DNA of 64,000 bases from Sulfurospirillum sp. (GTDB lineage Bacteria > Campylobacterota > Campylobacteria > Campylobacterales > Sulfurospirillaceae): assembly GCA_016744795.1 (NCBI GenBank), contig JADGDR010000005.1, positions 62,001 through 126,000 of the forward strand. The letters are read 5' to 3'. A program made the position numbers and the translations under genes. The first letter of the stretch is position 1. Each line of letters starts with the position of its first letter. Below, in pieces: positions 40,610-42,896 of this stretch. Under the pieces are notes generated by a model. That model had not been told where the DNA came from, did no database searches, and saw nothing but the letters and a program-made list of their open reading frames with translations.

Positions 40610-40637
40610 GTAGAATTTCAAAAAATCTTATAATAAG

Positions 40638-40666
40638 TCTACATGTAAATATATTTTACATGTAGA
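40638..40666. terminator. Hairpin from an inverted TACATGTA pair after hemC
   Basis: TCTACATGTAAA (40638-40649) and TTTACATGTAGA (40655-40666) form a 12-base stem with a TATAT loop, 29 bases past the hemC stop. This is the second such inverted pair in the window. T-richness downstream is modest. Confidence 0.75.
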
Positions 40667-40751
40667 TGACTCTTTAACTGTAAATAACTATTTAATTTTA
40701 TTAATCATATATAGACTTTTAGCGTTTAAATTTAACTCCTATATATTATAT

Positions 40752-40766
40752 TGATATTAATTCTCA
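40752..40766. promoter_or_regulatory. Candidate Fur box before the Ni-SOD operon
   Basis: TGATATTAATTCTCA matches the 7-1-7 Fur consensus TGATAAT-n-ATTATCA at 12 of 14 defined positions. It sits in a larger inverted repeat ATATTGA-N9-TCAATAT (40748-40770), about 45 bases upstream of the ankyrin gene. The overlap with A+T-rich -10-like sequence (TATATTATATTG) fits repression by iron-loaded Fur. By-eye match only. Confidence 0.45.
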
Positions 40767-40810
40767 ATATAGTTTAAGCTTCACATGTTAAAATTCTACA
40801 AAGGATTAAA

Positions 40811-41404
40811 ATGAGTAACAACAATTTAATTAATCATCATTTAGATTTGTCTAAATTACTTGTAGAAAACATACAAAATAGGTTAACATTTAATCAACTT
40901 ATATTAAATGGTGCAAATATTAACTTTCAAAATAATACAGGTTGGTGTGTTTTATTTGAAGTTATTGTGTTAAATTTGAACCATAAAATTAAAGAATATA
41001 TTGATTTAGGTGCAAAAATTAATATAAGAGATACAAAAGGAAGAAATGCACTTTTTTGGGCTGTTTATTCAAATAATAAAGAGGCTGTAAAAATTTTAAT
41101 TTCTTTAGATATAAATCCAATAGTAATAGATAAAACCAATTTACATGTAATGCATTATGCAGTGTATAAAAATAGTAGAATGTTGTTAAAAGTTCTTCTT
41201 AAAAGTGGTTTAAATATTAATCAAAAGGACAATTTACAATCTACACCATTAATTTATGCTGTTTTATATAATAAAATAGGTTTAATAGATTATCTTTTAG
41301 AAAATGGTGCTAATAAACATCACCAAGACTCTTCAGAAAATAGTGCTAAATCGTTAGCTAATGAACTAGGATTTGAAAAAATCGTAGATAAATTAAAAGG
41401 ATAA
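40811..41404 (+). CDS. Ankyrin-repeat protein
   Basis: 197-residue protein made of about four to five ankyrin repeats: ILNGANINFQNNTGWCVLFEVI, DLGAKINIRDTKGRNALFWAVYSN, SLDINPIVIDKTNLHVMHYAVYKN, KSGLNINQKDNLQSTPLIYAVLYN and ENGANKHHQDSSENSAKSLA. No signal peptide, so probably cytoplasmic. It lies three bases before sodN and is surely co-transcribed with it. Ankyrin proteins encoded next to catalase genes (AnkB in Pseudomonas, and in Campylobacter) support peroxide defence, so a helper role for Ni-SOD is an attractive inference. Confidence 0.85.
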   Translation: MSNNNLINHHLDLSKLLVENIQNRLTFNQLILNGANINFQNNTGWCVLFEVIVLNLNHKIKEYIDLGAKINIRDTKGRNALFWAVYSNNKEAVKILISLDINPIVIDKTNLHVMHYAVYKNSRMLLKVLLKSGLNINQKDNLQSTPLIYAVLYNKIGLIDYLLENGANKHHQDSSENSAKSLANELGFEKIVDKLKG

Positions 41405-41407
41405 AAT

Positions 41408-41863
41408 ATGTTTAGAATCGAATCTGCAAAAGCTCATTGTGATGTACCTTGTGGTATCTATGATCCTATAGTAGCTCAAATTGCGGCACTTAGTGTTATT
41501 AGAATGATTGATTTAATGATTGATTTAGAAAAAAGCGATAATTTAGAATATATCAACACTATTTCTAGGCATATTTCAGTTAAAGAGAGTGAAGCTGAAA
41601 AAGTAAAACATGAAATAAGAATTATTTGGGGAGATTTCATTAAACCTCCACATATTGAAAAATATCCACAAATTCATTCAATCGTACATAATATCATGAT
41701 GCTTGGATCTGCAAATAGACAAAGTATTTCAAAAGATAAAGCTTGCGAACTTTTAGAAGAAGTAAATAAATTTGCAGAAATTTTTTGGCAAATCAAAGGT
41801 GTTAGCACAAAAAAAGTAAATGCTAATTATTTGCCAAACAAAGAGATTGTTATACCTGTTTAA
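41408..41863 (+). CDS. sodN: Nickel superoxide dismutase SodN
   Basis: 151-residue precursor. After a nine-residue leader (MFRIESAKA) comes the nickel hook HCDVPCGIYDP, in which His1, Cys2 and Cys6 of the mature protein bind nickel and Tyr9 gates the site. The rest is the helical bundle with the expected IAALSVIRMIDLM and MMLGSANRQSIS segments. The enzyme dismutates superoxide in the cytoplasm and needs N-terminal cleavage by SodX, encoded next with a one-base overlap. AAAGGATAAA is the ribosome-binding site. This SOD class is well known in Streptomyces and cyanobacteria and unusual in this phylum. Confidence 0.93.
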   Translation: MFRIESAKAHCDVPCGIYDPIVAQIAALSVIRMIDLMIDLEKSDNLEYINTISRHISVKESEAEKVKHEIRIIWGDFIKPPHIEKYPQIHSIVHNIMMLGSANRQSISKDKACELLEEVNKFAEIFWQIKGVSTKKVNANYLPNKEIVIPV

Positions 41864-42141
41864 TGTTCAAACTTTTTAAGGTTGAAGGTTTTTCACTTTA
41901 TCCTCTTATTAAAGAGGGTGAAGTTTTGTTATGTATAAAACTTTTTTATTTTAATAAAATTAAAAAAAATGATTTTGTACTTTTTAGGCACAAGTTAAAA
42001 GGTCTAATGGTTAAAAAAGTAAGCTCTGTAAAAGAGAATAAATACTTTCTAAAAGGTGAGAATTCTTTTAGTTATGATAGTCGAGACTTTGGGGAATTAA
42101 AAAAAGAAGAACTTTTATATAAGGTAATTTATGTATTTTAG
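41863..42141 (+). CDS. sodX: Ni-SOD maturation protease SodX
   Basis: 92-residue S24/S26 signal-peptidase-like protein. The catalytic serine is in VEGFSLYPLIKEGE (GxSMxP-type motif, here GFSLYP) and the lysine base in KLKGLMVKKVSSV. The late GENSFSYDSRDFG block matches the LexA/signal-peptidase fold. No membrane helix, as expected for a cytoplasmic protease that removes the SodN leader. The ATG shares one base with the sodN stop codon. Confidence 0.88.
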   Translation: MFKLFKVEGFSLYPLIKEGEVLLCIKLFYFNKIKKNDFVLFRHKLKGLMVKKVSSVKENKYFLKGENSFSYDSRDFGELKKEELLYKVIYVF

Positions 42142-42302
42142 ATAGGATTTCATGAATAGAGTATTTTTTGTAAGATTCTCCAAAATATACTAGATTTCTT
42201 TCAAAAGTAAGAATAAAGATTGCACTAGTTATTTGAAGTTATAAATAAAAGTCAACTATTATAAATAAAAAATGCTCGGGTGTTAATCTTAAATTTAAAA
42301 TA

Positions 42303-42331
42303 TTGACAAACTAAACTACATGTAGTATAAT
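42303..42331 (+). promoter_or_regulatory. Perfect sigma-70 promoter of the toxin-antitoxin operon
   Basis: TTGACA (42303-42308), 17-base spacer, TATAAT (42326-42331), 31 bases before the antitoxin ATG. The spacer ends with ACTACATGTAGT (42315-42326), a 12-base perfect palindrome that contains one copy of the iterated octamer. It would be well placed as the autoregulatory operator of the ribbon-helix-helix antitoxin. Confidence 0.85.
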
Positions 42332-42361
42332 GTATCTACAAATATAGACAAGGGGGTACTT

Positions 42362-42589
42362 ATGAAAAAAGCGATAAATATAAGATTAGAAGAGTCTTTG
42401 TTAGCTGATTTAGATAGTTATGCAGGTGAGCTTGATAGGACTAGAACTTATATCATTGAAAAAGCTGTTAGTACTTATTTTGATACATTGGATGAGCTGA
42501 TTTCAGATAAGAGAATAGATGAAGTAAAAAAAGGAAATGTTGAAGTTTTTTCACTTGAGCAAGTAGCACAAAAACTTGGTTTAAACTAA
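42362..42589 (+). CDS. Ribbon-helix-helix antitoxin (CopG-type)
   Basis: 75 residues. The N-terminal KAINIRLEESLLADLDSYAGELDRTRTYIIEKAVSTYF is a ribbon-helix-helix DNA-binding domain, and the C-terminal IDEVKKGNVEVFSLEQVAQKLGLN is the toxin-binding tail. A GGGGG-rich ribosome-binding site precedes the ATG. The stop codon shares one base with the start of the toxin. Such antitoxins neutralise the partner and repress their own promoter, which here carries a palindrome in the spacer. Confidence 0.88.
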   Translation: MKKAINIRLEESLLADLDSYAGELDRTRTYIIEKAVSTYFDTLDELISDKRIDEVKKGNVEVFSLEQVAQKLGLN

Positions 42590-42840
42590 TGTTCAAAGTT
42601 ATTGTTTCAAAGTATGCTTTCAAAGAGTTATTGAAAATAGATAAAGAGAAGCAACAACTAATTTTTAATAAAATCAAAGTTTTAGAAAATGGAATATTTA
42701 CCAATGATAAGTCATTAAAAGGTAAACATAAGGGTAAGTTTAGAAAAAGAGCTGGAAATTATAGAATTATATATTTGAGAGAAAATGATGTTTTGTTAAT
42801 CACTGTAGTTAGGGTTGCACATAGAAAAGAAGTATATTAA
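42589..42840 (+). CDS. RelE/ParE-family toxin
   Basis: 83 residues with the RelE fold pattern: strand-helix FKVIVSKYAFKELLKIDKE, then the basic core SLKGKHKGKFRKRAGNYRIIYLRENDVLLITVVRVAHRKEVY. The GxYRIIY and VAHRKEVY motifs mark RelE-type mRNA interferases that cut mRNA in the ribosome. It is coupled to the upstream antitoxin gene. ParE-type gyrase poisoning cannot be fully excluded by eye, but the terminal HRxxxY favours RelE. Confidence 0.9.
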   Translation: MFKVIVSKYAFKELLKIDKEKQQLIFNKIKVLENGIFTNDKSLKGKHKGKFRKRAGNYRIIYLRENDVLLITVVRVAHRKEVY

Positions 42841-42896
42841 TTTATACCTAAACCAAATTAGATACAATACTACAATACAATACTAATGAGGAAAAT

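Follow-up and report, generated by a model that had tools for sequence, protein, structure and literature searches.

Superoxide dismutase (SOD) genes of the nickel type and small ankyrin genes have each been described beside partner genes in bacteria. In Streptomyces, sodF and sodN are under inverse control by the Fur-family regulator Nur (PMC3919588), and sodN of Prochlorococcus gave an active nickel SOD (Ni-SOD) in vivo that depended on its cognate peptidase, as the title of Eitinger (2004), cited in PMC3919588, states. Ni-SOD has likewise been published for Sulfurospirillum arcachonense, while other Sulfurospirillum have an iron SOD (Fe-SOD) (PMC4794192). Ankyrin-repeat proteins encoded beside catalase genes interact with catalase and promote it, and Cj1386 carries hemin to catalase according to a title cited in the same source (PMC10294975). 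Ni-SOD itself is thus not new in Sulfurospirillum; what is new here is the ankyrin gene as a real, recurrent, mobile and optional partner of both Ni-SOD and Fe-SOD. To our knowledge, the SodX peptidase is the sole bacterial factor generally assigned to Ni-SOD maturation. The literature searched, beyond whose reach many subscription papers lay, held nothing relevant on ankyrin and Ni-SOD together.

The window, the whole 64-kb stretch of DNA that was analysed, from the marine sulfur bacterium Sulfurospirillum sp., contains an ankyrin gene (ank), sodN and a sodX-like gene (Table 1). Judged from their spacing, the three genes form a tight operon: three bases separate ank from sodN, and the final base of the sodN stop is also the first base of the sodX-like gene. 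All three open reading frames of the original prediction, their spacing and the coupling of sodX to sodN were found as described; the start that it gave for the operon, 40752, precedes the ank ATG and falls on a Fur-like palindrome.

Table 1. Features of the ank-sodN-sodX locus and of the block that contains it, in window positions
Feature	Position	Strand	Basis and remarks
Whole inserted block between hemC and ubiD	40610..42896	.	hemC-ubiD contiguous in relatives; low GC
Fur-family-like palindrome, core TGATATTAATTCTCA	40749..40769	.	~59 bases before ank start; 12/14 match to TGATAATNATTATCA
ank, 197-aa ankyrin-repeat protein without extra domain	40811..41404	+	Pfam Ank_2/Ank_4; AlphaFold2 model; family kept beside SOD genes
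sodN, nickel superoxide dismutase precursor, 151 aa	41408..41863	+	PF09055, TIGR02753; aligns to solved Ni-SODs from His1
SodN leader MFRIESAKA, predicted cut before His10	41408..41434	+	Sequence; same length in most marine Campylobacterota sodN
SodX-like S26 peptidase, 92 aa, translationally coupled to sodN	41863..42141	+	PF10502 above cut-off; TIGR02754 below curated cut-off; invariant Ser11/Lys51
RHH/RelB-like antitoxin, same block, outside the SOD system	42362..42589	+	PF01402; NF048017 below cut-off
RelE/ParE-like toxin of the toxin-antitoxin pair, same block	42589..42840	+	PF05016, 32.6 bits

SodN matched Sod_Ni of Pfam (PF09055) with 158 bits (cut-off 25) and TIGR02753 of NCBIfam with 163 bits (cut-off 90). 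The nickel-hook motif HCDxPCGxY, including Cys2 and Cys6, is present as HCDVPCGIY at residues 10–18, intact behind a nine-residue leader as originally read, and aligns to residue 1 onward of solved Ni-SODs. Because an in-frame stop codon sits directly 5' of the sodN ATG, the leader is capped at nine residues and nothing longer is possible. Most marine Campylobacterota sodN genes share this leader length, and the leaders are longer in the rest; nine-residue leaders also occur at sodN loci without ank, which ruled out the idea that ank causes the short leader. The coupled peptidase scored 35 bits against Peptidase_S26 of Pfam (PF10502), above the cut-off, and its S26 Ser/Lys pair, Ser11 (in GxSLxP) and Lys51, is invariant in 44 of 44 homologs. 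Since its score of 41.6 bits against TIGR02754 lies under the NCBIfam cut-off of 63.25, we name it SodX-like despite its coupling to sodN.

The palindrome pattern has its sole exact copy in the 64-kb window upstream of ank. All seven ank-sodN promoters from the window and six Arcobacteraceae matched TGATAATNATTATCA at 12–13 of 14 positions, whereas sodN promoters without ank matched at 10 of 14 or fewer. Sulfurovum ank-sodN promoters yielded no Fur-type box, which is therefore not universal. Where it stands before ank, it probably places the operon under the control of metal or oxidative status.

The genome, which is 100% complete, carries one sodN, and a PF02777 profile search found no Fe/Mn-SOD in it; the absence of sodB, which the original prediction had raised, was thereby confirmed. 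SodN occurs in four of the 44 genomes of the same family, all four without Fe-SOD, and Fe-SOD in 23 others. Among 35 distinct SodN-positive genomes searched, some of them incomplete MAGs, 32 lack Fe-SOD. Across 399 genomes of Campylobacterales, SodN exceeded the family cut-off in 10, one of which (G045) has a divergent, probably secreted form. Ni-SOD in Campylobacterales is known but uncommon; the surprise first expressed at finding it in Campylobacterota is smaller given the S. arcachonense enzyme (PMC4794192). As a separate observation, locus L005 (1495–1905) encodes a divergent SodN-like protein that seems to have a true signal peptide (LYSHCQIPCGIY). The open reading frames listed there include no sodX; the genome also carries Fe-SOD, and the protein is possibly a secreted Ni-SOD variant.

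In each of the 10 relatives checked, hemC adjoins ubiD without intervening genes; in the window a 2.3-kb block lies between them. Its GC content is approximately 23–27%, against 33–36% in hemC and most of ubiD. The window SodN is 74–79% identical to Arcobacteraceae proteins and 64% identical to S. arcachonense SodN; the corresponding value for HemC and its S. arcachonense counterpart is 87%. The SodN tree places the window protein inside an Arcobacteraceae clade (100/97). Given that SodN is nearest to Arcobacteraceae and that the block separates otherwise adjoining genes, we conclude that the ank-sodN-sodX cassette was gained horizontally with ank on board. The block also contains a 12/12 sigma-70-like promoter (42303–42331) ahead of the toxin-antitoxin pair (42362–42840). 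A congener (G002, locus L214) has a similar RHH/RelE pair near hemC, and the vicinity of hemC may therefore be a spot that attracts insertions.

The recurrence of ank beside sodN was examined with profile A2, an alignment of sodN-linked ankyrins including that of the window, which was searched over the 399 Campylobacterales genomes. The four top matches (283–240 bits) are all neighbours of sodN: three stand just upstream of it, and that of G143 is on the other strand at a distance of about 0.8 kb. The window ankyrin, whose own sequence is in the profile, gave a full-length match of 283 bits, the top score of the 399 genomes. The distance from ank to the sodN gene behind it runs from an overlap to 122 bases in Arcobacteraceae and Sulfurovum; the gaps within ank-sodN-sodX in Arcobacteraceae and the window are −23 to 17 bases. 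The settings of the pair vary: beside a divergent nicO, in a TolQ/TolR-like region, in the slot behind gene X of genus g74 (Arcobacteraceae), beside YggS or nicO in Sulfurovum, and between hemC and ubiD in the window. Three sodN loci without the ankyrin (G005, G008 and G013), checked at the family level, had hinted at a chance association, a reading that the wider scan and the profile search overturned. The pairing is conserved in other bacteria, the opposite of the outcome that the original prediction had named as contrary to it.

A NicO-like nickel permease gene adjoins many ank-sodN loci, divergent in Arcobacteraceae and first in the row in Sulfurovum, with one copy above the Pfam cut-off and the others just below; no NicO gene was found within the 64-kb window. 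The product beside ank-sodN is a membrane protein of about 213 aa with HAxxPDHLxA (L200 4002–4643, L204 3920–4561, L061 3809–4450), and it possibly belongs to a family of nickel permeases, so far unannotated, that goes with Ni-SOD.

Sister loci in Sulfurovum align on both sides of a clean ank gap, and their sodN-sodX genes are near-identical or closely related. At L061, about 490 bases, containing ank, stand in the place of 18 bases at L059, whose mature SodN is identical; the corresponding stretches measure about 757 bases at L062 and 17 at L063; and L045 has nicO-ank where L048 has nothing. An ankyrin profile search of the L059 genome (G425) gave no ankyrin match. The clean presence and absence in these loci, together with at least eight changes in ank presence on the SodN tree, indicate that ank is optional, yet it stands repeatedly in the same place before sodN. 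Since Prochlorococcus Ni-SOD is active with its cognate peptidase and ank is missing from many sodN loci, the ankyrin is not generally required.

The same ankyrin family also accompanies Fe-SOD. In genus g74, gene X is followed by ank-sodB in seven genomes, by ank-sodN-sodX in one (G275) and by sodB without ank in three; the flanks of this slot are conserved, and the SodB identity was confirmed by Pfam. G275, which has sodN, also shares the next gene, for an ADP-ribosylglycohydrolase, with G462 (ank-sodB) and with G251, which has sodB but lacks ank. The ankyrin tree joins the ank beside sodN in G275 and the one beside sodB in G462 as sisters (96/89), and this pair falls within the group of sodB-linked sequences. 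Read most simply, one SOD gene was replaced by another next to an ankyrin gene that was already in place, and the alternation of sodB and sodN in one slot, with the G275 ank nested in the sodB-linked group, argues against a nickel-only role. Gene X itself (L190–L197; e.g., L192 5702–6295) encodes a conserved 197-aa protein before ank or SOD in this genus; the protein has a single hydrophobic stretch, at its N-terminus, and matched nothing in Pfam or NCBIfam.

The window ankyrin scored 73.6 bits against Pfam Ank_2, and its AlphaFold2 model is an ankyrin solenoid (pLDDT 93). A PDB fold search retrieved ankyrins, designed ones among them, and so identifies the fold as ankyrin and no more; NCBIfam names of Legionella Dot/Icm effectors were rejected, as they scored far below cut-off and share only ankyrin repeats. 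Residues N38, Q40, G44, W45, F49, D74, W83, Y116 and D140 are common to all or nearly all sodN- and sodB-linked ankyrins. The alignment of SOD-linked ankyrins contains neither a conserved Cys nor a conserved His cluster; the sequence therefore suggests no metal-carrier role, and reading a metal chaperone from the sequence was rejected on this ground. In the g74 sodB-linked proteins E50 and R78 drift, which we did not accept as specific to SOD type because it may just follow one subclade.

Catalase-ankyrin pairs also occur in Campylobacterales, and their ankyrins are related but distant: in a tree of Campylobacterales members only, three katA-linked ankyrins form a branch separate from the SOD-linked ones (100/100, length 2.5). 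The window gene, with hemC and sodN as neighbours, does not adjoin a catalase. The analogy with catalase ankyrins drawn at the outset was a sensible one, as such pairs exist in the order and their role is documented (PMC10294975); given the distant branch, the likeness is one of working alike, not of membership. Some members of the ankyrin family sit away from any SOD, and members also lie near glutathione peroxidase, a Fur-family regulator and a HugZ-like gene. At L124–L127, L185 and L186, the same family is found two genes from glutathione peroxidase. A cluster of catalase, ankyrin, DoxX and convergent sodB occurs in Arcobacteraceae (L203 2757–5826; also L201 and L202).

These observations bear unequally on what the ankyrin does. 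The original prediction saw in it a possible new Ni-SOD accessory factor, of which the recurrence beside sodN has held and the nickel specificity has not: seven Arcobacteraceae genomes have a member of the family immediately before Fe-SOD, and the gene is missing from sister loci with similar or near-identical sodN-sodX and from the S. arcachonense sodN locus. We regard this version, tied to nickel, as the less likely. A protein devoted to Ni-SOD maturation, acting as a nickel chaperone or by holding the SodN leader out to SodX, would agree with the close coupling of the three genes in Arcobacteraceae and the window, with the passage of ank into the window genome together with sodN, with the NicO-like permease near many such loci and with the unusually short SodN leaders of the group. 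Nevertheless, we consider it unlikely, because the family precedes Fe-SOD in the same slot with its sodN-linked member nested among sodB-linked ones, no conserved Cys/His cluster is available for metal, short-leader SodN exists without ank, and sister loci lack the gene.

Somewhat doubtful, too, is a general oxidative-stress factor that is co-regulated with SOD and acts elsewhere, on the H2O2 produced, on catalase or in heme handling, with SOD as a mere neighbour. The members near glutathione peroxidase, the Fur-family regulator and the HugZ-like gene, the distant cousins directly after catalase and the hemin delivery by Cj1386 (title cited in PMC10294975) all point that way, but full-length top-scoring members repeatedly abut a SOD gene in unrelated settings, a tighter linkage than co-regulation requires, and the catalase-linked ankyrins are a separate, distant branch. 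The patchy distribution of ank, with its many changes on the SodN tree and its clean presence or absence between sister loci, would suit a neutral or selfish passenger riding by chance with sodN. Such a passenger is very improbable given its independent linkage to sodN and sodB in several settings, its repeated placement directly before sodN, and the strong conservation of the family-specific residues W45, D74, W83 and Y116. As a tentative possibility, the family may be a dedicated, metal-independent SOD assembly or stabilising factor that is kept when the adjoining SOD swaps between Fe and Ni type; if so, it would represent a hitherto undescribed sort of accessory protein for bacterial SODs.

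The explanation that we favour is an acquired Ni-SOD cassette with an optional, metal-neutral ankyrin partner of SOD; for this account as a whole, our confidence and our doubt are about equal. The cassette would give its host the only recognised superoxide dismutase, replacing Fe-SOD. SodN would be made as a precursor with the nine-residue leader, the coupled SodX-like S26 protease would cut it off, and the new N-terminus, HCDVPCGIY, would bind nickel. The presumably co-transcribed ankyrin most likely binds fresh SOD or an assembly intermediate via its repeat groove, and by analogy with the catalase-adjoining ankyrins that raise catalase activity, it probably aids assembly or stability of the SOD oligomer; the Fur-type box before ank probably sets the operon by metal or oxidative status. 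Because relatives of the ankyrin also sit away from SOD, its partner may be other than SOD.

One chromosomal slot in which ank accompanies either sodN or an unrelated Fe-SOD amounts to a natural experiment, with the SOD swapped and the ankyrin resident, and makes directly testable whether one small scaffold protein assists SODs of two non-homologous kinds in the way that related ankyrins assist catalase. The loci also document that mobile cassettes have replaced Fe-SOD by Ni-SOD in marine Campylobacterota, which bears on sulfur bacteria facing oxygen under scarce iron.

Compared with known systems, the window shares with the sodN-sodX pairs of Streptomyces and Prochlorococcus the HCDxPCGxY hook, a precursor leader, an adjoining S26-like peptidase and a significant match to solved Ni-SODs, and differs in the nine-residue leader, the ankyrin gene in front and the Campylobacterota host with insertion at hemC-ubiD; the Nur box of Streptomyces sodN also differs from the window palindrome. 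S. arcachonense (PMC4794192) has in common with it the host genus, the enzyme family and the absence of Fe-SOD, whereas its sodN, diverged to the extent given above, lies at another chromosomal site, encodes a longer leader and lacks an ankyrin gene. The g74 sodB loci carry an orthologous ankyrin family, with flanks shared among themselves and with the G275 sodN locus, but a non-homologous iron SOD replaces the nickel enzyme and sodX is absent. As with AnkB of Pseudomonas aeruginosa, Cj1386 of Campylobacter jejuni and AnkB of Xanthomonas, as cited in PMC10294975, a small ankyrin stands beside an antioxidant enzyme, and those proteins are likewise proposed there to stabilise the adjoining enzyme or help it mature; the partner in the window is SOD instead of catalase, and the catalase-linked ankyrins of Campylobacterales belong to a distant, separate branch.
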